From positions 3,593-37,438 of the forward strand of contig NZHF01000040.1 of assembly GCA_002691305.1 (NCBI GenBank): 33,846 bases of DNA, written 5' to 3'. Of the stretch, positions 3,859-16,550 are shown in pieces; positions within the stretch are counted from its first letter, which is position 1; every line of letters begins with the position of its first letter. The notes below the pieces were generated by a model. It worked only from the letters and a program-made list of their open reading frames with translations, was not told the origin of the DNA and ran no database searches. This stretch comes from Gammaproteobacteria bacterium. Lineage in GTDB: Bacteria; Pseudomonadota; Gammaproteobacteria; Steroidobacterales; UBA11654. Made by a program: the position numbers and the translations under genes.

Positions 3859-4422
3859 ATGAAAAGAATAATTGTTGGAATTTCAGGTGCTAGCGGTGTT
3901 ATTTACGGCATTCGACTTCTTGAGATGCTCAAAGAAATCAAAGGCGTTGAATCACATTTGGTGATGACCAATGGTGCCAAACTGAATATTTCTCTCGAAA
4001 CTGACTTTGACTCAAAAGCCGTCGAAGAGCTCGCTGATGTGGTTCACAATGATAAAAACTTGGGAGCCAATATTGCCAGTGGTTCATACGAAACAGAAGG
4101 CATGATTATTGCTCCATGCTCCATGAAAACACTTTCTGCTGTTGCGAATTCGTATGCTGCAAATCTCATCGTCAGGGCAGCAGATGTCGTCCTGAAAGAA
4201 CGGAGAAGTCTCATCATTATTCCAAGAGAAACGCCACTGCATTTAGGGCATATAGATCTTCTTCGGAAAGTCTCTTTAATGGGCGCTCATGTGGTTCCAC
4301 CGAATCCCGCTTTCTACAACGATCCAAAATCAATTGATGACATCATTAACCATACTGTTGGAAGAGTTTTGGATTTGATTGGCATCGACAATGATGTGGT
4401 TAGCCGATGGAAGGGTGTATAG
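3859..4422 (+). CDS. ubiX: UbiX-family flavin prenyltransferase
   Basis: 187 residues, the usual length. It makes prenylated FMN (prFMN) from FMN and dimethylallyl phosphate, the cofactor of UbiD-type decarboxylases. Visible signatures: the N-terminal flavin loop GISGASGVIYG, the IIAPCSMKTLSA segment, the KERRSLIIIPRETPLHLGH motif with the Arg and Glu that contact FMN and the prenyl donor, and the C-terminal PAFY segment. The start is the ATG right behind an extended -10 box. It is followed after 6 bp by the UPF0306-like gene, and a UbiD-family gene lies 1.4 kb downstream on the same strand, its likely client. It could serve ubiquinone synthesis or another prFMN enzyme. Confidence 0.95.
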   Translation: MKRIIVGISGASGVIYGIRLLEMLKEIKGVESHLVMTNGAKLNISLETDFDSKAVEELADVVHNDKNLGANIASGSYETEGMIIAPCSMKTLSAVANSYAANLIVRAADVVLKERRSLIIIPRETPLHLGHIDLLRKVSLMGAHVVPPNPAFYNDPKSIDDIINHTVGRVLDLIGIDNDVVSRWKGV

Positions 4423-5845: not shown

Positions 5846-7342
5846 GTGCAATTTAATGACATGAGAGGATACATCGATGTCCTTAGAAAAGAGAACTTGC
5901 TACATGATTTGGATATCGAACTAAATGTAGCCAGAGAAACATCTGAGCTTCAAGCTCTAATGAGACATTTGCACAATGAAGACGGGCCTGCACTCTTATT
6001 GAATAATCTGGCAGGCTACAACATGCCGGAGATACCTCTTTTATTCAATCCTTATGGAACTCGGGAAAGAACAGCAATGATCTTGGGAGAGAAGGATCCT
6101 CTTAAGGCAAAAGCAAAGCATGCAAATGTTTTGGCTGATCAATCCAGTTGGATTGAGCCCAATATTATCAGCAAGCAAGACTCACCTTGTAAGCAAAACT
6201 TAATTTCAGATAGAGACATTGACCTGTCAAAGCAGCTTCCTCATGCTTGGTTTGCCAAAGAAGGTCCATCGTATATCACGAATGCCATTGTGATCACTAA
6301 AGATCCAGAGACAGGGATTGCGAATACGGGATGTTATCGACTGACGCAATTATGGAATGCATCTCATCCTCATGGGGAAATATATTCAGAAGAAGAGCAA
6401 AGAAGATGTTTATCGATCTTTGCATTTTGGAATCCCCCAGGCAATCACATAGGTCTTCACTGGGCAAAAGCACAAGAGATGGGAAAACCATTGGAAATTG
6501 CCATTGCTTGCGTTGTTGATCCAGTAGTTCAATTGGCCAGCGCAACCAGTCTGCCATTCGGATTGGATGAGATGAATTTTGCAGGCGGATTAAAAGGAGA
6601 AGCAATCGATGTAGTTCCTTGTGAGACCATTGATATCGATGTACCCGCAAGAGCGGAGTTAATCATAGAAGGTCAGTTCTTGCCAAATAGGGACGTTACC
6701 ATTGGGCCTCATTCTAATCCAATTGGCTATTACGATGATGAGCAATTATTCCCTTTAATGGAGGTTCAATGCATTACTCATAGAGATGAACCCATATGGT
6801 ATTCAACAATGGAAATGATGCCTCCATTTGATCACAATTACATGGCTGTTTTGCCTATAGAAGGCGAACTACTCAGTGATCTCCAAAGTAAAATTCCAGA
6901 GGTTAAAGATGTGGTGGTTACTCCAAATCTGAGTTATCTCATTCAGCTTTCCGTTGACGGAGCTCAAAAGCCGCATCCTGAATTTGGAAAGTATGTTTTG
7001 CATGCAGTTTGGGGCGCAAGTGGCAGATGGGGAAGGACTGCAAAAATTGCAGTCGTGGTAGGACCGGATGTAAATCCCTATGATCTAAATGAGGTTGAAT
7101 GGGCAATATTGACCCGTGTACAACCGCATTCAGACACCATCATTAACAAATCGGGACAAGCATTTCTGATGGATCCATCGGCACCGAAAGATTCTACCCA
7201 TGGCATTGCGCTTCAATCCGAGCAAATGGGTATCGATGCAACAATTAAAGTATTTGAGCGTTTTCATTCGTATCCTGAATACAGCAATGCTGACCCTGAA
7301 GCTGTCTCAGCAATTGCTGCAAAATTAAAAGGATCGTTCTAG
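5846..7342 (+). CDS. divergent UbiD-family (prFMN) protein
   Basis: 498 residues, the usual UbiD length, aligning by eye along its whole length with UbiD/Fdc decarboxylases. The cofactor and metal-site residues look kept: Asn160 and Arg165 in NTGCYR, His174 or His176, and Glu242 in LDEMNFAGG. The motif that normally carries the two catalytic Glu/Asp (E-G-P-x-G-[ED], Fdc1 E277 and E282) reads I-G-P-H-S-N here, so the positions are Ile286 and Asn291. The start is a GTG 7 nt behind GGGAG. A possible sigma70 site (TTGGAT, 16 nt, TATCCT) lies about 40-60 bp upstream. The pepM gene follows after 16 bp, so it may lead the phosphonate operon. Decarboxylase activity is not assured, and a role in ubiquinone synthesis is only one option. 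Confidence 0.85.
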
Positions 7343-7358: not shown

Positions 7359-8978
7359 GTGACTGTGAGTAAGAAAACAAAGCAGTTTAGAGAATTGCTA
7401 CTCAGCAAAGATCTTGAATTCTTGCTGGAGGCACACAATGGAATCAGTGCAAAGATTGGAGAAGAGGCAGGTTTTAAGGGCCTTTGGGCAAGCGGATTAG
7501 CAATATCTGCTCAGTACGGCGTTAGGGATAGCAATGAGGCCAGCTGGACCCAAGTGCTTGAGAACATAGAATTCATGTCTGATGCCAGCAATATACCAAT
7601 TATGCTTGATGGCGACACCGGTTACGGCAATTTCAATAATGTCAGGCGTTTGGTTAGGAAACTTGAGCAAAGAGACATTGCAGCAGTTTGCATTGAGGAT
7701 AAGCTTTATCCTAAAACCAATAGTTTCATAGATGGAGATAAGCAAGAGCTTGCCGATATAGAAGAGTTTTGCAGTCGAATTAAGGCAGGTAAAGATGCTC
7801 AGATTGACGATGATTTCTCTATCATTACCAGGATTGAGGCATTCATTGCTGGATGGGGTTTAAGTGAAGCCTTAAAAAGAGCAGAGGCTTATCATGAAGC
7901 AGGTTCCGATGCGATTTTAATCCACAGCGCAAAATCCGATCCAAGTGAAATCTTGGCTTTTAAAAAAGAATGGGGCGATACCTCGCCCGTGATAGTGGTT
8001 CCAACAAAATATTACTCAACACCAACAGAGGTGTTGGAGCAAGAGGGATTCTCCATTGCCATATGGGCAAACCACATGATCAGGTCTTCAATCAAAGCCA
8101 TGCAGGAATCTGCCAAACAGATTTTTGAATCGTCTTCAATTCTTACAATTGAGAATGAGATTGCCTCGGTGAAAGAGATTTTCAGATTACAAGGCGTTTC
8201 AGAGCTGAAAGAAGCCGAAGCAAATTATTTGCCTAAAAAAGAAACAACCGCTGAGGCAATCATTCTAGCTGCTTCGCGAGGTGAAGCCATGGGCAGTCTG
8301 ACCGATGATCAGCCCAAAACCATGATCCCATTAAAAAATAAAAGTATGCTGGAGCACATTACCGAGATATATCGTAACCATGGCGTCAATAATATTCATG
8401 TCGTTCGAGGATATAAAAAGAAGGCAATTAACATCCCTGAACTACACTATATCGATAACGATGATTTTGATGTCACTTCTGAGTTGTCTTCTTTTCAAAA
8501 AGCCATTGAACAGATCGATGGCGACACGTATTGCTCATTTGGCGATGTTCTATTTAAACCTTACATGCTTGATTTAATGGATGACTCTGAGGATGATTTG
8601 GTCCTGCTTATCGATACTCAATGGAGGGATTCTGTAAATAAAGGCAGGGCAGCGGACTATGTAAAATGTTCTCAACCTCATTCGAGAGCCAATTATACCG
8701 ATCCAATTTTTTTAGACTCTGCGGGGGAAACGCTCGATGAAGAGTCCATTCATGGAGAATGGATGGGCATCATTAAAATTTCTTCAAAGATTATTCCTCT
8801 TATAAAGAATGAGGTAAATGCCCTATCAAAAGGAGAGGATTTTCATTCGATGAAAATGCACCATTTTTTGGAACATCTTTGCAAGATTAAGCAGCCAATC
8901 AGAGTGGTCTATACCACTGGAAATTGGCTTGATGTCGATACACTTGAAGACGTCATAAGAGCTAGTAATTTCATATGA
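7359..8978 (+). CDS. pepM: PEP mutase fused to a nucleotidyltransferase-like domain
   Basis: 539 residues in two domains. Residues about 10-290 are phosphoenolpyruvate mutase, an isocitrate-lyase-superfamily barrel that converts PEP to phosphonopyruvate and forms the C-P bond. It has [17 protein letters not shown] (metal-site Asp) and the diagnostic EDKxxPKxNS motif at about 113-122. Residues about 297-539 are a sugar-nucleotidyltransferase-like fold ending in [12 protein letters not shown]. Its nucleotide loop is atypical ([13 protein letters not shown] instead of LAAGxGxRLG), so catalysis by this half is uncertain. Start codons are GTG at 7359 or GTG at 7365; AAGG sits 5 nt before the second. 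The 3' end overlaps ppd by ATGA. First committed step of the AEP pathway. Confidence 0.93.
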
Positions 8979-10129
8979 TTTACGCGAACAAATTTTTAGA
9001 TGAAGCATTTCATCTGGGTTTTAATACCTATACAGGTGTTCCTTGTTCATTCTTAAAGCCTTTGATCAATGCATCAATGGAGTCAGATCGTTTATCATAT
9101 ATTCCCGCTGTCAATGAGGGCGATGCTGTAGGCATTGCTGCTGGAGTCTATCTTGGTGGAGGTATGCCTGTTGTGATGTTCCAAAATTCTGGATTGGGCA
9201 ATGCCGTCAACCCATTTACGTCCTTGATTCAAACTTTTGAAATACCCATCTTAATGATTGCCACATTGAGGGGTGATCCTGAGAATGAGCCCGATGAGCC
9301 TCAACATCAACTGATGGGTAAAATAACAACTCAACTTCTTGACTTGATGCAAGTCAGCTGGTCTTGGTTTCCTGAAAACGACGATGAGTTGACCAAGGCA
9401 ATGGCAACCATTAAAGATCGAATACTTGATTGCCAACAACCACATGTTTTAGTAATGAAGAAAAACTCGGTTGAGCCATTTGATCTGTCTGAAAATACTG
9501 AAAGTTCGATTAATCATATTGCAGCCATGGATGATTACGAGAATGAAGCGTCGGGTCTGGTCAGCAGAAGTGAGGTTATAAAAGTTCTGATAGAAAAAAC
9601 AAATGAAGAAGATGATCTGATCATTGCTACTACAGGATACACCGGAAGAGAACTCTACGCTGCCGGGGATCGAAACAATCATTTTTATATGGTTGGCTCA
9701 ATGGGCTGTGCGATAGATATAGGGTTAGGCTTATCAATTATGCAGTCGAATAAAAGAGTGATTGTCATCGATGGCGATGGTGCTATTCTCATGCGTCTAG
9801 GTGCCATGTCAACGGTTGGTTTTATGGCTCCTGAGAACCTGACCCACATTGTGTTAGACAATGGCGCATACGAATCTACCGGATCCCAAAGAACGGTCTC
9901 CTCGATACTGGATTTTAAGATGCTTGCTCATTCAAATCGTTACAGAAACTCAATGAAGTTAAGTTCCTTGAGTGACCTTGCCTCACTCCTTGATTCAGAT
10001 AGAAAAGGGCCAAATTTTATTCATTTCCCAATAAAAAAAGGAATAGCGAGCAAGTTACCACGTCCTTCAATCTCCCCAAATGATGTTGCACAAAGATTTA
10101 GAAAAAATATAGAAAATACAAATGATTAA
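8975..10129 (+). CDS. ppd: phosphonopyruvate decarboxylase
   Basis: 384 residues, a thiamine-diphosphate enzyme that turns phosphonopyruvate into phosphonoacetaldehyde and CO2, pulling the unfavourable PEP mutase equilibrium forward. The N-terminal pyrimidine-binding domain has [12 protein letters not shown] and the glutamate in [12 protein letters not shown]. The C-terminal domain has GSMGCA and the Mg/diphosphate motif [15 protein letters not shown] (Asp about residue 266), followed by a conserved Asn in [12 protein letters not shown]. Length and order match the known phosphonopyruvate decarboxylases rather than sulfopyruvate decarboxylase, and the neighbours settle the choice. The start overlaps pepM by 4 bp and the 3' end overlaps the aminotransferase gene by 8 bp, so translation is probably coupled. 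Confidence 0.95.
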
Positions 10130-11219
10130 TCAAAAGCAAAATATCTTACTCAATCCGGGTCCAGTCAATATGTCGGATCGTGTAAAAAAACAAATGATCA
10201 GTGAAGATTTCTGTCACCGCGAAAAAGAATTTTCAGATTTGATACAAGATCTCAATTCACAGTTGGCAACTACTTATGAGGATATGATGGATTATGAATC
10301 CGTAATCCTAACCAGTTCCGGAACTGGTGCCGTTGAGGGGATGCTGACTTCATTTATACACGAAGAGAAGTCACTCATTGTGAGTAATGGCGTTTATGGC
10401 GAAAGGATGGAGAAGATTCTTCGTGCCCAGAATAAAGCTTACCATGCCATCAAATTTGATTGGCTTGATCCAATAGATGTCCAGTCAATTGCAGATTCTA
10501 TTGATGCCGATCGGAGCATTAAAAACTTAATTTTAGTGCATCATGAAACAACCACAGGCCGATTGAATAAATTGCAAGAAATAGGTCAGCTGTGTAAGAA
10601 ATATGATCTGAGTTTATACCTCGATGGCGTCAGCAGTTTTGGTGCAGAAGAAATAATGGCAGACGAGATTAATCTAAAAGCTGTTGCTGCATCTGCAAAC
10701 AAATGCCTTCATGGCGCACCCGGTCTTGCTTTTGTGATTGCGCATAAGGATCAATGGAAGAGGATCCCAAAGGAACCTTCTGGAGTTTATTTTGATTTGC
10801 ATGGTTACTATCACATGCAAAAAACCGATGGATTCTCACCGTTCACTCAAGGCACCCATTTGGTTAATGCTCTTCATGAGGCGATGCTTGAATTCAAAGA
10901 AATGGGTGGATGGAAAGCAAGAAATGCCTTATTCCAAAGCAGAGCTGAACAAATATATCTTTGTCTGCATCAGCTTGGCATCAAAACGTTGATACCAAAA
11001 GAAGATTACTCATCTGTATTGAGATCTTATCGATTGCCAGAAGATATTGCGTACCAAGACTTACATGCCTTTATGAAAAATAATGGATTTGTGATCTACC
11101 AAGGACAAGGCAGCTTTAAAGAGAACATTTTCAGAATTTCAACTATGGGACATATTGAAGAATCACACATCACTTTGTTATGCGATCTATTTGAAGACTT
11201 TTTCAATAATCATGGTTAA
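10122..11219 (+). CDS. phnW: 2-aminoethylphosphonate aminotransferase
   Basis: 365 residues, a class-V PLP aminotransferase that interconverts phosphonoacetaldehyde and AEP. It starts with LLNPGPVNMS, has FCHREKEF, SSGTGAVEGM, LDGVSSFGAE and the Schiff-base lysine in ASANKCLHG (about Lys194), all typical of AEP aminotransferases. Enzymes of this family also work in AEP breakdown, but with PEP mutase and the decarboxylase directly upstream and no phosphonoacetaldehyde hydrolase in sight, the direction here should be synthesis. It overlaps ppd by 8 bp and the cytidylyltransferase gene by 8 bp. Confidence 0.93.
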   Translation: MINQKQNILLNPGPVNMSDRVKKQMISEDFCHREKEFSDLIQDLNSQLATTYEDMMDYESVILTSSGTGAVEGMLTSFIHEEKSLIVSNGVYGERMEKILRAQNKAYHAIKFDWLDPIDVQSIADSIDADRSIKNLILVHHETTTGRLNKLQEIGQLCKKYDLSLYLDGVSSFGAEEIMADEINLKAVAASANKCLHGAPGLAFVIAHKDQWKRIPKEPSGVYFDLHGYYHMQKTDGFSPFTQGTHLVNALHEAMLEFKEMGGWKARNALFQSRAEQIYLCLHQLGIKTLIPKEDYSSVLRSYRLPEDIAYQDLHAFMKNNGFVIYQGQGSFKENIFRISTMGHIEESHITLLCDLFEDFFNNHG

Positions 11220-11982
11220 GGAAGCTGTAATTTTAGCAGCAGGAATGGGAAGCCGATTGGGGAATCAAAACGATCAAAAGCCAAAAGGATTTTTACAATT
11301 GGGCAATCAACCCATTATTGAGGAGTCAATCAAGAAATTGATCAAGTGTGGTATTGAGAAAATCTGGATTGTAACTGGCTATCAATCTCACTACTTCAAA
11401 GAATTAACCGAACGTTATGATTCCACCGTGTGTCTTGTCAGTAATGAGGAGTTTGATCAATCGGGAACATTGCATTCACTTTCAATGATTGCAGAAAAGG
11501 TATGTCCTCCATTTTTATTACTCGAGTCCGATATCATTTTTGAATACAGAGCAATTGAAAAAATTTTGAACCATCGAAACGAAGACTGCCTTCTATTGAG
11601 TGGTTTCAATGAATGTGGCGATGAGGTATTTGTTGAAACCAATCGTGAAGAATTGGTATTTATGTCAAAAAATATGCATGAGCTTAGCCGTCCTCCAGCC
11701 GGTGAATTGGTTGGAATTACAAAAATTGGAAAAGAATTATTTTTAAAAATGATGCAGTTTTATAACAGCGATGAAAAAAATAAATTGGCCGATTATGAAA
11801 CCGATGCATTGGTTGCGGTTGCTGGAGAGATCTCAATTCCCTGTCTAATAATAGATGATTTAATATGGTCAGAAATAGATGATCAGTCTCATCTTAAACG
11901 TGCTAAGGAAGAAATTTATCCCAAGGTTATTGAAACTGATTTAAAATATTTTTCTAAATCATCCAATCAAAGGCATTTGTAG
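11212..11982 (+). CDS. pntC: PntC-type CTP:AEP cytidylyltransferase
   Basis: 256 residues, a complete small nucleotidyltransferase. The loop LAAGMGSRLGNQ, then KPKGFLQLG, is the full NTP-binding signature, and LLESDIIF supplies the metal-binding Asp. By known pathways, PntC enzymes join CTP and AEP to CMP-AEP, which marks phosphonate for transfer to lipid or glycan much as CDP-choline does. The chosen ATG overlaps the aminotransferase gene by 8 bp; a longer reading from 11155 lies inside that gene and adds residues before the natural first beta strand, so it is rejected. Unlike the domain fused to PEP mutase, the active-site loop is intact, so this is probably the working cytidylyltransferase. 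A LicC-like activity on choline or ethanolamine phosphate is possible but less likely here. Confidence 0.85.
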   Translation: MVKEAVILAAGMGSRLGNQNDQKPKGFLQLGNQPIIEESIKKLIKCGIEKIWIVTGYQSHYFKELTERYDSTVCLVSNEEFDQSGTLHSLSMIAEKVCPPFLLLESDIIFEYRAIEKILNHRNEDCLLLSGFNECGDEVFVETNREELVFMSKNMHELSRPPAGELVGITKIGKELFLKMMQFYNSDEKNKLADYETDALVAVAGEISIPCLIIDDLIWSEIDDQSHLKRAKEEIYPKVIETDLKYFSKSSNQRHL

Positions 11983-12180
11983 GTGAAAAAAAGATTAATA
12001 ATTTTCTCAATGGCATCCATTTGCTATACGAATGCGGCTCATGCATATCTTGATCCAAGTACAGGCGGCATGCTGATTTCAGCAATAATAGGAATGTTCG
12101 CTACACTGGGACTGGTGATTAAGTCATATTGGTATAAATTAAAGTCACTCTTTAGAAAGAAAGAAAAAAGGATGGATTGA
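11983..12180 (+). CDS. 65-residue membrane protein with a YLDPSTG motif
   Basis: Begins with a GTG that directly abuts the stop of pntC. It has a signal-like N-terminus (KKRLIIFSMASICYTNAAHA), a short exported motif AYLDPSTGG, one transmembrane helix (about residues 29-47) and a strongly basic tail (YWYKLKSLFRKKEKR). Small proteins with 'YLDPGTGS' followed by a single helix and a basic end recur next to polysaccharide and cell-surface genes in many bacteria, but I know of no assigned function. It lies 9 bp before the TagF-like gene, in the same operon. It could be a small subunit or anchor for the following enzymes. That is inference. Confidence 0.75.
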   Translation: MKKRLIIFSMASICYTNAAHAYLDPSTGGMLISAIIGMFATLGLVIKSYWYKLKSLFRKKEKRMD

Positions 12181-12189
12181 TTATTCGAT

Positions 12190-13314
12190 ATGAAAACTTT
12201 CTTTAAGGAGTTCCAAGGATATCAAGCATACAAGAAACTTCCCAAATCGTTTAAAGAAATTGTTTTCTATTCAGAGAGTTTTCAAGATTGGCACCATCTC
12301 AAGCCGCTTTTGTGCGGATTATTGAATCAAAAAATGACGGTTACCTATGTCACGTCAGATGAAGAAGATCCTGGATTACTGAAACAGTCTCCAAATTACA
12401 GGTCCATCTATATCGGTAAGGGTTTTTTTAGAATTCTTTTCTTTCAGTACTTAAAGGCAAAGTTATTCATTTTAACCATGATGGACTTGGATAATTTTGA
12501 ACTAAAGAGATCTATACATCCAGTTCATTATGTCTATCTATTTCATACACTTGGCAGCACTCACATGGTTGATCGAGAAGAGTCATATGATCATTACGAC
12601 ACTATATTCTGTGCAGGCCCTCATCAGAAAAACGAAATTGAGAAAAGGGAAGCAATCAAAGAGGTTAGAAAAAAAAATTTGATTCAATATGGATACCCCA
12701 GACTTGAGAAATTGGTTCAGATTAAATCGAAGGCTGATGAGAAAGACAAAGTTGTTCTTCTGGCGCCAACATGGGGAAATGAGAGCCTAATCAATACAAT
12801 TGGGGAGGATGTTTGTACAAAGATTATAGAGAGTGGATTCAAACTTATTCTAAGGCCACATCATGAAACATTGAAGAGAACACCGGAGGTGATTTCTCAG
12901 ATTGAGAATAGATATAAAAATAATCAATCCTTTACATTGGTTACGGAAATGAGTGATACCGACTCCCTCTTGAGCTCAGATATTTTAATATGTGATTGGT
13001 CAGGAACGGCAATTGAATATGCATTAGGCCTAGAAAAGCCAGTCATATTCATTGATACACCGCCACGAGTGAGAAACCCCAATTGGAAAGAATTAAAATC
13101 TGAGCCATTGGAAATAAGCATCAGAGAAAAAGTGGGTCAAATAATTTCCCCAACAAATCTCAATGACTTGTCATCTGCTATTACTCAATTATTGAGAAAC
13201 GATCAAACCTTTCCCGACCAGATGAAATCATTGCGTAAAGAATTTGTATATAATTTAGGTCTTTCAGAAATCGTTGGCCCAGAAGAGATAAAAAAATTAT
13301 TAAAAACACTCTAA
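12190..13314 (+). CDS. TagB/TagF-like CDP-alcohol phosphotransferase
   Basis: 374 residues of the CDP-glycerol glycerophosphotransferase family (GT-B-like fold, used in teichoic acid synthesis). Evidence: VYLFHTLGSTHM, FCAGPHQKNEI, LLAPTWGNESLI, LILRPHHET and the C-terminal donor-site block SDTDSLLSSDILICDWSGTAIEYALGLEKPVIFIDTP. It has no signal peptide or membrane helix and would act at the inner face of the membrane. Classical members use CDP-glycerol or CDP-ribitol. No gene for making either is nearby, but the four preceding genes make a CMP-activated phosphonate, so CMP-AEP is a reasonable donor candidate (inference). The acceptor is unknown. It overlaps the start region of the YejM-like gene. 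Confidence 0.85.
   Translation: MKTFFKEFQGYQAYKKLPKSFKEIVFYSESFQDWHHLKPLLCGLLNQKMTVTYVTSDEEDPGLLKQSPNYRSIYIGKGFFRILFFQYLKAKLFILTMMDLDNFELKRSIHPVHYVYLFHTLGSTHMVDREESYDHYDTIFCAGPHQKNEIEKREAIKEVRKKNLIQYGYPRLEKLVQIKSKADEKDKVVLLAPTWGNESLINTIGEDVCTKIIESGFKLILRPHHETLKRTPEVISQIENRYKNNQSFTLVTEMSDTDSLLSSDILICDWSGTAIEYALGLEKPVIFIDTPPRVRNPNWKELKSEPLEISIREKVGQIISPTNLNDLSSAITQLLRNDQTFPDQMKSLRKEFVYNLGLSEIVGPEEIKKLLKTL
13282..13287 (+). promoter_or_regulatory. Shine-Dalgarno-like GAAGAG before ATT start of the YejM-like gene
   Basis: A purine-rich stretch (AGAAGAGA) ends 8 nt before an in-frame ATT at 13296. No ATG, GTG, TTG or CTG occurs in this frame between the stop at 13251 and a TTG at 13377, yet clear YejM-type sequence is coded between 13300 and 13377. 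The match to the anti-Shine-Dalgarno is only fair, so the site is tentative; coupling to TagF translation may help. Confidence 0.35.
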
Positions 13315-15092
13315 AACTAAATTTTCCTTCAAGTTGGTTCCTTTGGTACGGTTTCTTTAATGGACTTATAGCCTCTTTGATATCGATTCAGTATCTCCTT
13401 TTCTATCCTTCGACTATGACGTGGTTGTCTGCGAGTTATATTCTATTTGCAACTTTGACTCATTTTATATCGATACATTATTTACCGCTTCTTTTGCTCT
13501 CATTGATTCATCGGATAGTGGACATGAAAAAAACACTGGTCCTCTTTGCAATAATTTATGGATCAATCATTAATACACTGATCGTGATGGATGCGAATTT
13601 TTTTACAACCAATCGATTTCATATGAGTCTTATGACCGCAATCCTTTTTGACAGTTCGACCTATATATTCCTATTGCTTCAGCTCATGATTATGATCGTT
13701 TTCCATTATTTTCTTGGCAATGAAATAGGCAAGTCCCTAAAAAAAAGAAAAGGCAAGACTTTTGTCGGTATTTCTCTAACAGCTGTCGTTATCAGTGCGT
13801 GGATATATGTTCAAGGTGTTCATATTTGGGCAGATGCAACCTATCAATCATCCATCACAACTTTCACAAGATATTTGCCATTATTCAGACCTATTCATGC
13901 CAAAAGAGATCTTGCTAGGTTGGGTTTGATCGATTCAGATCGATTGAGAAAAGAGAGTCTGTCCCGGCAAAAAATAGATTCAGAGTTACTTTATCCAAAG
14001 AATGAGTTGCAGTGCAGGATTGATGAGCAATCAAATAATGTATTGATTATTCTGATCGATGCCTTGCGTCCCGAGATGATCAATGACGCGGTTATGCCCA
14101 ATACAACAAAACTTTTCTCCGATAGCGTCAGCTTTGACAATCATTATTCAGGTGGGACCTCATCCAGAATGGGTATGTTTTCACTTTTTTATGGTCTGCC
14201 TTCTACATATTGGAGAGTGTTTCATGACAATCTCAAACCTGCGCTGATGATTTCAAATTTTGATGAGCATAATTATGATATTCAGGCCATCAGTTCATCA
14301 GGGTTAGGAAGTCCTGCAGTCCTTGATAGGACTGCTTTTGCTGGTATTTCCAATATCAATCTCAAGCCACTAGATGATTCTGAAACAGCCAGTTTAGAGT
14401 TGGTGACCGATCGTTGGGTGAATGGATTTGATCAAGGCCAGGGATCTAAATTTTTCACCTTATTGCATTATGATCCTCCAATCAATGAAGCAAACCCAAA
14501 TCAATCTTTGGGTATCACCAATGGATTTTTAAGAAAAGATGATGAAGCACACAATCTTGAAGTATCAAGATATATCCAATCAATCCGACATGTGGATAAG
14601 GAGATTGGAAGGTTAAGCGATGTTTTGAATGAAAGAGACATGCTCAAAAATACCATAGTGATTTTGACCTCAGACCATGGTTATGAACTCGATGATTATC
14701 AAACCAATTATTACGGCCATTCTAGTAATTATAGTCCCGCTCAAACCAAGGTCCCTCTGAAGATCATTTGGCCAAATAGAAATTCTGATAACTATTCATT
14801 TCGATCGTCTCATCATGATTTTGCACCCACCTTATTGAAGGAAGTCTTGGGTTGCTCAAACAGCTACTCGGATTACAGCACCGGCAATAATTTATTTGAT
14901 CAAAAGCCTTGGAATCATTTAATCGCTGGTAGTTACGACTCCTTTGCAGTTTTGACAAGAGAAAAAACGATCATTTCTTATGGGAGTTACTTTGAAGTTA
15001 GAGATCAAAACTACAATCCCACTGACATCAAAAACACAGATTACAGGGACATTGAGGATGCAATATCCGATATGAGTGAATATTACAAATAA
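13296..15092 (+). CDS. YejM/PbgA-like membrane protein of the alkaline phosphatase superfamily
   Basis: About 598 residues from the ATT start (E. coli YejM has 586), or 571 from the first canonical codon, TTG at 13377. An N-terminal DUF3413-like region with about five membrane helices leads into HIWADATYQSSIT and LPLFRPIHAKRDLARLGL, which match YejM closely, and then a periplasmic sulfatase/AlkP domain. The AlkP metal and nucleophile residues look present: Asp255 (LIDALRP), Thr288 (SGGTSSRMG), Asp460-His461 (TSDHG) and His475 (YGHSS). E. coli YejM/PbgA lacks the DHG-type site and works in LPS control. This protein may therefore be an active phospho- or phosphono-transferase/hydrolase. The first helix (SWFLWYGFFNGLI) is coded upstream of 13377 and matches the YejM N-terminus, which favours the longer form. 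It overlaps tagF and is joined to the YidC-like gene by TAATG. Confidence 0.85.
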   Translation: MIKNTLKLNFPSSWFLWYGFFNGLIASLISIQYLLFYPSTMTWLSASYILFATLTHFISIHYLPLLLLSLIHRIVDMKKTLVLFAIIYGSIINTLIVMDANFFTTNRFHMSLMTAILFDSSTYIFLLLQLMIMIVFHYFLGNEIGKSLKKRKGKTFVGISLTAVVISAWIYVQGVHIWADATYQSSITTFTRYLPLFRPIHAKRDLARLGLIDSDRLRKESLSRQKIDSELLYPKNELQCRIDEQSNNVLIILIDALRPEMINDAVMPNTTKLFSDSVSFDNHYSGGTSSRMGMFSLFYGLPSTYWRVFHDNLKPALMISNFDEHNYDIQAISSSGLGSPAVLDRTAFAGISNINLKPLDDSETASLELVTDRWVNGFDQGQGSKFFTLLHYDPPINEANPNQSLGITNGFLRKDDEAHNLEVSRYIQSIRHVDKEIGRLSDVLNERDMLKNTIVILTSDHGYELDDYQTNYYGHSSNYSPAQTKVPLKIIWPNRNSDNYSFRSSHHDFAPTLLKEVLGCSNSYSDYSTGNNLFDQKPWNHLIAGSYDSFAVLTREKTIISYGSYFEVRDQNYNPTDIKNTDYRDIEDAISDMSEYYK

Positions 15093-16537
15093 TGTCAGTT
15101 ATGATCAGAATATGCCTATTGATATTCATATTTTCTCAGCAAGCACTCGGCCTTGAGCAACCACTTGATCAAAATCATTTTGGCCAGATTACATTCGATC
15201 CAAACAAACCTTCGATCCAGAGATGGATGACATGTTATCCAGATTGTTCATCAAAAAATAAGATCTCTTCGGAGCTGAATATTGAGTCAAACATATTTTT
15301 AAAGATTTTGGATAGCAATGGCATTCCTCACAATGACTATGAGATGAAATCACGAAAAGTGGGCGATAAATTCAAGATTACCTACACCCGAAGCGATTAT
15401 GAAGATGGGATCTCAGAAGTGGTTTTTCAAAATAATCCAAAAAATGGTTTTGTAGAGCTCATGATTCAATCAGAAAAGGATATTCAGGTTGAAATTGATC
15501 CAGACAAGCTTTTGATTGAGGAAGATATCTATGGAATGGGCAGTATCTATAACGGTTCATGGTTGGTCAGGTTGTCTGATCAGGGCTCTGAGAATATAAC
15601 CGCACTCAGTCAAGTTATTGTTCAAAAAAGCTCTTGGATTGGTGCTCGAACAAGGTTCTGGACATTTCTAATTTCTCCTGAAAATCATGAAGCAACGGCC
15701 AATAGAATCACTGAATCAGAGCTGGGATTGAAACTCACATCAACTGCTGAAGACGGTTTGCATCATTTCATTTTGTATTTTGGCCCGCTGAATACAAAAC
15801 AATTGGTCGGTTCTGAGCCAGAACTTAGGCAGCTTATGTATGCGGCACTTTGGGATTGGCTGAGGCAATTATGCTTTTTCATTGATTGGATCTTTTTCTG
15901 GTTATTCAATTTTTCTGGGAATGCTGGATTATCAATCCTTCTTCTTGCATGCGTATTAAAAGTCATCATTTACCCTCTGAACCGAGTCGCTGAAAAATGG
16001 CAGGATGATGTGAATATTACTCACTCCATGTTGCAACCAAAAATCGATGAAATAAAAGATAATTATTCGGGCGAAGAGGCTAATGACAGGATCATGAAGC
16101 TCTATAAAGATAAAAATATAAATCCTTTTTACTCAATAAAAAGTTTATTTGGTTTTCTGATACAGATCCCCGTTTTCATAGCGGTCTTTGATGTTTTGGG
16201 AGAATCAATATATCTATTGGGGGAATCTTTTGTTTTTATCAATGATTTAAGTAAACCGGATCAGTGGGCAACACTTCCAATTTTTATACCCTTTTTTGGA
16301 TCTTCGTTGAATCTTTTACCGCTGTGCATGATGATAATCAGCTTGTTGAGCGCCTATCTGTACTCAGATAAAAATCTAAACAAGAGTTTACTGGATAATC
16401 AGAAAAGAAAATTATATCTCATGTCTGTTTTATTCTTTGTATTGTTGTTCACATTCCCATCGGGGATGGTGCTTTATTGGACGACTTCTAACTTTCTTCA
16501 ATTGATGCAAACACAAATAAAAAAGGCTCTTCAATAA
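15092..16537 (+). CDS. YidC/Oxa1-like insertase paralogue
   Basis: 481 residues. A signal-peptide-like start (LLIFIFSQQALG-LEQ) is followed by a periplasmic domain of about 230 residues, shorter than YidC's P1 (about 300). Then comes the five-helix insertase core: LSILLLACVLKVIIYPLNR, the MLQPKIDEIKDNY coiled segment, LYKDKNINPF, LIQIPVFIAVFDVL and FPSGMVLYWTTSN. The groove arginine of YidC (Arg366, in 'VRGIMYPL') is Lys here. The gene sits at the end of the phosphonate/surface operon, not in the usual rnpA-yidC-trmE setting, so it is probably a dedicated second copy; the housekeeping yidC would lie elsewhere. It may insert or hold the YejM-like enzyme or the 65-residue protein (inference). 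Its stop lies inside a terminator hairpin. Confidence 0.9.
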   Translation: MSVMIRICLLIFIFSQQALGLEQPLDQNHFGQITFDPNKPSIQRWMTCYPDCSSKNKISSELNIESNIFLKILDSNGIPHNDYEMKSRKVGDKFKITYTRSDYEDGISEVVFQNNPKNGFVELMIQSEKDIQVEIDPDKLLIEEDIYGMGSIYNGSWLVRLSDQGSENITALSQVIVQKSSWIGARTRFWTFLISPENHEATANRITESELGLKLTSTAEDGLHHFILYFGPLNTKQLVGSEPELRQLMYAALWDWLRQLCFFIDWIFFWLFNFSGNAGLSILLLACVLKVIIYPLNRVAEKWQDDVNITHSMLQPKIDEIKDNYSGEEANDRIMKLYKDKNINPFYSIKSLFGFLIQIPVFIAVFDVLGESIYLLGESFVFINDLSKPDQWATLPIFIPFFGSSLNLLPLCMMIISLLSAYLYSDKNLNKSLLDNQKRKLYLMSVLFFVLLFTFPSGMVLYWTTSNFLQLMQTQIKKALQ

Positions 16538-16550
16538 AGAGCCTTTTTTT
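16521..16550 (+). terminator. intrinsic terminator closing the phosphonate/surface operon
   Basis: A perfect 11-bp inverted repeat (AAAAGGCTCTT / AAGAGCCTTTT) around a 5-nt loop (CAATA), running straight into a T-tract. The stem includes the last codons and stop of the YidC-like gene. Because the left arm starts with an A-run, it could also act for the convergent PuuD-like gene on the other strand. Confidence 0.9.

Follow-up and report, generated by a model that had tools for sequence, protein, structure and literature searches.

Eight tightly packed genes of a marine gammaproteobacterium probably form one system for making, activating and attaching 2-aminoethylphosphonate (AEP), in which a headgroup-specific front end is coupled to a general attachment module. 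The latter, composed of a YLDP microprotein, a TagF-like transferase, an AlkP-superfamily enzyme and a YidC paralogue, is a real module in the Gammaproteobacteria sampled. A previous, sequence-only reading of this DNA had presented the operon as a full make-and-attach device for surface AEP, and the eight-gene block common to four families, together with gene fusions, speaks for that, but the back half has proved not to be phosphonate-specific.

Organization of the operon

The window (the whole 33,846-nucleotide stretch analysed) belongs to a 1.48-Mb genome that is 64% complete. Domain searches and reading of open reading frames place eight densely spaced plus-strand genes at 7359-16537, in the order PepM-NTase, Ppd, AEP aminotransferase, PntC-like NTase, YLDP, TagF-like, YejM-like AlkP and YidC, all of them present as the sequence-only reading had it.

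5846..7342, + strand: UbiD-family decarboxylase (PF01977/PF20696/PF20695; TIGR00148, 269 bits against a cut-off of 245)
7359..8978, + strand: PEP mutase (PepM) with a C-terminal NTP_transf_3 domain (PF13714 + PF12804; TIGR02320)
8975..10129, + strand: phosphonopyruvate decarboxylase (Ppd; TIGR03297)
10122..11219, + strand: AEP aminotransferase, PhnW/AepZ type (TIGR03301)
11212..11982, + strand: PntC-like nucleotidyltransferase, predicted CTP:AEP cytidylyltransferase (6PD1 match)
11983..12180, + strand: YLDP microprotein (signal peptide, AxA/YLDPSTGG, one TM helix, basic tail)
12190..13314, + strand: TagF-like transferase, soluble GT-B fold, predicted CMP-AEP transferase (PF04464)
13317..15092, + strand: YejM-like membrane AlkP-superfamily enzyme (DUF3413 + sulfatase fold; PF11893, PF00884)
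15092..16537, + strand: YidC-like protein, operon clade (PF02096, TIGR03592)
16519..16549, no strand assigned: intrinsic (bidirectional) terminator, a 14-bp stem then a T-run

From pepM to yidC the successive intergenic distances are -4, -8, -8, 0, +9, (+62) and -1 bp, so that the limit of 9 bp originally put on the gaps holds for six junctions but not for that between tagF and the AlkP gene, where the start is probably mis-set. The apparent 62-bp gap there arises from taking the first ATG, GTG or TTG in frame, a TTG at 13377; protein conservation in relatives reaches approximately 13317, the frame is open to 13254, and the relatives' AlkP genes are likewise without a usual start codon at the conserved N-terminus. 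On these sequence grounds translation probably begins at an ATT (13296 or 13299) inside the 3' end of tagF. The single terminal terminator that had been described is indeed there, as the hairpin with T-runs at 16519-16549. A terminator dividing the two halves, which the sequence-only reading had named as something that would tell against it, has no comparable counterpart between them in a hairpin scan of the block, an additional hairpin at 14316-14335 being within the AlkP coding sequence. The UbiD gene, which ends 16 bp ahead of the pepM start, may be the first gene of a putative pepM-yidC transcript. Relatives L003-L006 likewise have it ahead of pepM, with an overlap of the pepM start in one of them (L005), and it occurs near some family f15 loci.

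Predicted synthesis and activation of AEP

That the first four genes synthesize and activate AEP, as initially read, is supported at the sequence level by equivalog-level or close matches. PepM scores 388.8 bits against TIGR02320 (cut-off 319.55), a 10-residue stretch of its translation fits the diagnostic signature EDKxxxxxNS, and the nearest solved relative of the PepM domain is PEP phosphomutase 1M1B. Its identification as PEP mutase was thus right but overlooked a fused C-terminal NTase domain. Ppd is above the cut-off for TIGR03297 (399.8 bits against 312.5), and the aminotransferase, at 338.2 bits (E=7e-101) against TIGR03301, narrowly misses the equivalog cut-off of 360.8 and is a close homologue. 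The operon accordingly holds two NTase domains, one fused to PepM and one standalone. Absence of the GxGxRL loop from the fused domain, and its presence in the standalone one, makes the latter the better candidate for CMP-AEP synthesis. The closest solved relative of this PntC-like protein is 6PD1 (Nucleotidyl transferase/aminotransferase; E=4e-45), presumably the Treponema denticola PntC-AEPT (PntC-aminotransferase), followed by LicC 1JYK (E=5e-12). By strong sequence resemblance, PepM, Ppd and the aminotransferase would convert PEP to AEP, and the PntC-like NTase would convert AEP to CMP-AEP.

Recurrence of the back half

Genomes sampled from the order, the class and the phylum were screened with a TagF-like profile, and the loci were read with family HMMs built in this analysis. 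Matches came from 47 of the 296 genomes sampled in the order and from 12 of the 369 sampled in the class; in the 398-genome phylum sample only gammaproteobacterial genomes matched, and none outside the class. A plasmid search with TagF gave no match and one with YidC gave ordinary-looking YidCs only. The resulting survey base is 39 TagF-like loci in 13 families of sampled Gammaproteobacteria. YLDP is beside or fused to TagF at 38 of these, YidC is nearby at 33, and 32 have an AlkP-superfamily gene nearby; several missing-gene cases fall at contig ends. YLDP and TagF are a single protein in five loci (L050, L051, L052, L108 and L110), as are YidC and AlkP in L050 and L051, and the repeated fusion of these pairs argues that their members work together. 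In view of the recurrence and the fusions, chance neighbourhood of the four genes is rejected. An apparent AlkP-YidC fusion in L097 was rejected, its domains being in different frames, and the frameshifted copies in L006/G009 are probably sequencing error since adjacent housekeeping genes are also broken.

The AEP version accounts for 22 loci in four families (f1, f7, f11 and f15). The closest relatives keep all eight genes, and the recurrence of the block in other families, at 35-60% protein identity, puts its gene order above chance. The converse survey, of 20 other gammaproteobacterial pepM loci, found nearly all to comprise NTase, PepM-NTase, Ppd and aminotransferase genes, with the TagF/YLDP/YidC module absent from nearly all; seven of them adjoin hopanoid genes, and one (L179) has a YejM-like AlkP, with PF04464 genes farther off. 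The AEP front end therefore has at least two genomic settings, and the original supposition that the last four genes travel with pepM is correct for four families but not for most other pepM operons in the class.

The TagF-like transferase and its small partner

The 374-aa TagF-like protein scores 47.7 bits against PF04464 (cut-off 22.1) and far below the equivalog cut-offs for TarF (25 against 550 bits) and TarB (17 against 500). Among PDB folds its AlphaFold model (pLDDT 93) is matched best by TagF 3L7K, with CDP-glycerol bound, and the next matches include a CMP-bound capsule polymerase. With the TagF/TarF/TagB CDP-glycerol transferases it shares the GT-B fold and the His and DxS motifs, H119, H224 and DxSG being invariant or nearly so across 34 relatives. 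It differs from them in being one short domain with no polymerase extensions, at 14% identity over the structural match. The YLDP protein beside it, 65 aa with the motif AYLDPSTGG, matched no Pfam, NCBIfam or PHROG family. In the TagF tree the AEP-type proteins form a single clade (support 100/98), which would be expected of a TagF that reads the headgroup, and hydroxyethylphosphonate- and phosphoramidate-type proteins are intermixed; going by the sequences, the transferase appears to go with the headgroup, with some swapping. Fold and motifs suggest that the cytosolic enzyme, tethered to the membrane by YLDP, would take the phosphonyl group of CMP-AEP and attach it to an acceptor in the membrane (a lipid carrier, a lipid or a lipid-linked glycan), releasing CMP.

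The AlkP-superfamily enzyme

Homology of the AlkP protein to YejM (5I5H/6XLP) is full-length (E=2e-43), and with YejM/PbgA/LapC and EptA/LtaS it shares an N-terminal DUF3413 membrane domain and a periplasmic sulfatase fold. Calling it YejM-like is warranted by this end-to-end homology, but the name is loose: the operon enzyme retains IDALRP, SDHG and GH motifs, whereas the metal-site motifs are absent from E. coli and Salmonella YejM, which have AGRG and a gap at the SDHG and GH positions; unlike YejM it adjoins a headgroup pathway; and the AlkP gene at other loci is of a different AlkP subfamily. Catalysis is uncertain since the position of the EptA-type nucleophile is occupied by Thr in the window's family and by Asn in f7, f11 and f15. 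Nor is the enzyme strictly required at the locus, given the absence of its gene at the AEP-type f15 loci L099 and L100. By analogy with EptA and LtaS, its active site would be periplasmic and it would either hand the headgroup to the final surface acceptor or trim it.

The resemblance to YejM, and the finding of no second YejM-type gene in the 64%-complete genome, would also fit the last four genes being LPS-homeostasis genes, a YejM/LapC regulator plus a spare YidC, that share a transcript with the AEP genes and are functionally unconnected to them. This is very improbable, and largely refuted by co-occurrence, as the set turns up again beside unrelated headgroup pathways and with a different AlkP subfamily, partly as fusions. 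The protein also scores only 204.6 bits against the YejM/LapC model NF038282, far under its cut-off of 825.

A second YidC

The operon YidC is above both cut-offs, for PF02096 (117 against 35 bits) and TIGR03592 (123 against 84), and its AlphaFold model (pLDDT 86) matches E. coli YidC 6AL2 over the full length, periplasmic domain included (Foldseek E=1.5e-18). A branch with 100/100 support separates operon YidCs from ordinary ones, and an ordinary YidC is also present in 13 of 14 genomes checked, the exception being G010 (88% complete). What had been taken for a dedicated YidC is thus a distinct second one, fixed in most copies and in a clade of its own. Fold and basic groove residue are those of YidC/Oxa1 insertases, but it is tied to TagF and YLDP in the loci seen, and most copies have Lys at the position of the E. 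coli YidC groove Arg (L046-L048 have Arg, and L050, L051 and L108 have Asn). The short forms have no periplasmic domain.

It would act as a private insertase or flippase, seating YLDP or AlkP, or moving AEP-lipid across the inner membrane. A role mainly as lipid scramblase or flippase for the headgroup lipid made by TagF, rather than as protein insertase, is favoured by the fact that E. coli YidC, like other Oxa1-family insertases, scrambles lipids in vitro (PMC10491306). The partner genes encode lipid and headgroup enzymes, and the fusion to AlkP, the substituted groove Arg and the short forms point the same way. Set against this are the retained core fold with its full-length YidC match, the persistence of a basic groove residue in most copies, and YLDP itself, which as a tiny N-out membrane protein is of the type inserted by YidC; on balance a mainly flippase role is rather unlikely, if well short of negligible.

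Interchangeable front ends and glycan settings

Family f7 alone has three front ends with the same module. One is that for AEP (L101-L103). Another, of hydroxyethylphosphonate type, has CTP_transf_like-PepM, Ppd and an iron alcohol dehydrogenase (L104, and likewise L049 of f165). The third is of phosphoramidate type (L026 and L105 in f7, and also L046 and L053). The front-end enzymes of this last type resemble those of the Campylobacter jejuni O-methyl phosphoramidate (MeOPN) pathway, with its glutamine kinase route (PMC6429109). The sister loci have, where complete, a glutamine-kinase-like PPDK_N/PEP-utilizer protein (NF004508, 935 bits), and with it an NTase, a formyltransferase-like protein and a GATase that matches gamma-glutamyl-CDP-amidate hydrolase (E=3e-40, below its cut-off). 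Unlike the C. jejuni cluster, in which other transferases are used, three of the four also carry YLDP, TagF and YidC; in L053, YLDP and YidC were not found within the 15 kb read. L050 has a front end of PF01467-PepM, Ppd and a PF01467-AepZ fusion, and L047/L048 have a LicC-like NTase only. No pepM was found genome-wide in the phosphoramidate- or LicC-type G053, G953, G402, G398, G168, G382 and G284. In G825, G848, G976, G1038, G154 and G252, the module loci have no pepM near them within the stretch read, and a PepM-family match is elsewhere in the genome (below cut-off in G154). The module thus also stands behind phosphoramidate-type genes, or behind a LicC-like NTase on its own, in genomes that yielded no pepM, and the phosphonate-specific reading of the last four genes has to be given up. 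Elsewhere, the same module would be driven by other activated phosphorus groups.

Several non-AEP modules sit amid GDP-mannose, GT25, bacterial sugar transferase, NeuB and asparagine-synthase-type EPS genes, for which reason their acceptor is probably a surface glycan. The settings of several swapped modules are O-antigen, sialic-acid-type or EPS loci. No glycan genes are near the window locus, which would suit a module that makes a polymer or a free phosphonolipid, TagF being a polymerase or lipid headgroup transferase, instead of one that decorates glycans; TagF and its nearest fold matches are, moreover, polymerases. Such an outcome is improbable, as the protein, at 374 aa, is without the additional domains found in TagF polymerases, AEP and phosphoramidate offer no second hydroxyl for chain growth, and the sister modules lie in glycan loci. 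Attachment of AEP at the surface is the outcome preferred for the window's operon, by steps that would run in the order of transferase, YidC and AlkP.

Relation to known systems and implications

The nearest known counterparts are the PepM-PntC phosphonyl tailoring operons, which in the available portions of Rice et al. (2019, PMC6697681) have, as here, a PepM-NTP_transf_3 fusion and second NTase, Ppd, AEP aminotransferase and CMP-AEP logic, the co-occurrence in clusters of a fused NTase and another nearby being noted there. Their partners differ, those portions naming LicD-like phosphotransferases and glycosyltransferases with no mention of YidC, YLDP or AlkP, and terming the steps after CMP-phosphonate formation enigmatic. 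Literature searches (pepM/YidC, pepM/CDP-glycerol/sulfatase, YLDP/YidC and YidC/phosphoramidate), mainly of open-access papers and weak evidence of novelty, found no description of the module. The operon is apparently phosphonyl tailoring with a new, undescribed attachment module. Marine phosphonate producers are thought to place phosphonates on surface glycoproteins (PMC8931226).

A broader proposal, tentative and somewhat doubtful, makes YLDP-TagF-AlkP-YidC a general, hitherto undescribed machine for attaching headgroups in Gram-negative envelopes. Its dedicated YidC paralogue would flip the carrier of the headgroup or seat it, and bacteria would alter their surface chemistry by swapping front ends (phosphonate, hydroxyethylphosphonate, phosphoramidate and possibly phosphocholine). 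With a fixed module of four genes behind three to four activated-phosphorus pathways, there are concrete candidate transferases and a testable attachment step. If true, the link of a YidC paralogue to a lipid or glycan pathway would broaden the known roles of the YidC/Oxa1 family.

Gene starts and frames

In the stretch 13296-13377 of the window, the YejM-like gene appears to start at an ATT inside the 3′ end of tagF, and in relatives too the corresponding start region is devoid of ATG, GTG and TTG. In G009, the genome of a relative, at L006 and L031 both the operon genes and the adjoining housekeeping genes are frameshifted, probably reflecting sequencing error, not decay.

Variant gene neighborhoods

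Two genes of UbiD/UbiX type precede pepM in the window:

3859-4422, UbiX-like gene, accompanying the UbiD gene
5846-7342, UbiD decarboxylase, separated from pepM by 16 bp

At some loci of family f15, pepM likewise has UbiD nearby. The operon neighborhood in this family holds another PEP-mutase/isocitrate-lyase superfamily protein, with about 30% identity to PepM:

Loci with the second superfamily protein
L023, L025, L091-L096, L099, L100

At L109 (genome G1060) a single 650-aa ORF (9765-11714) combines TagF-like and ABC ATPase domains, and a second TagF-like gene adjoins it. At L047 and L048, the YLDP-TagF-AlkP-YidC module is accompanied by a single LicC-like NTase and adjoins an asparagine-synthase-type gene that is typical of exosortase/EPS style clusters; pepM was not found in the genomes bearing these two loci.

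At other gammaproteobacterial pepM loci (L168, L169, L171, L174, L175, L180 and L181), the NTase, PepM-NTase, Ppd and AT genes adjoin hopanoid genes, namely hpnH/DUF3463 radical SAM, hpnI-like GT2 and MlaC-like hpnM, with MlaA and dxs additionally present at L181. A hopanoid-AEP pathway is possible there.
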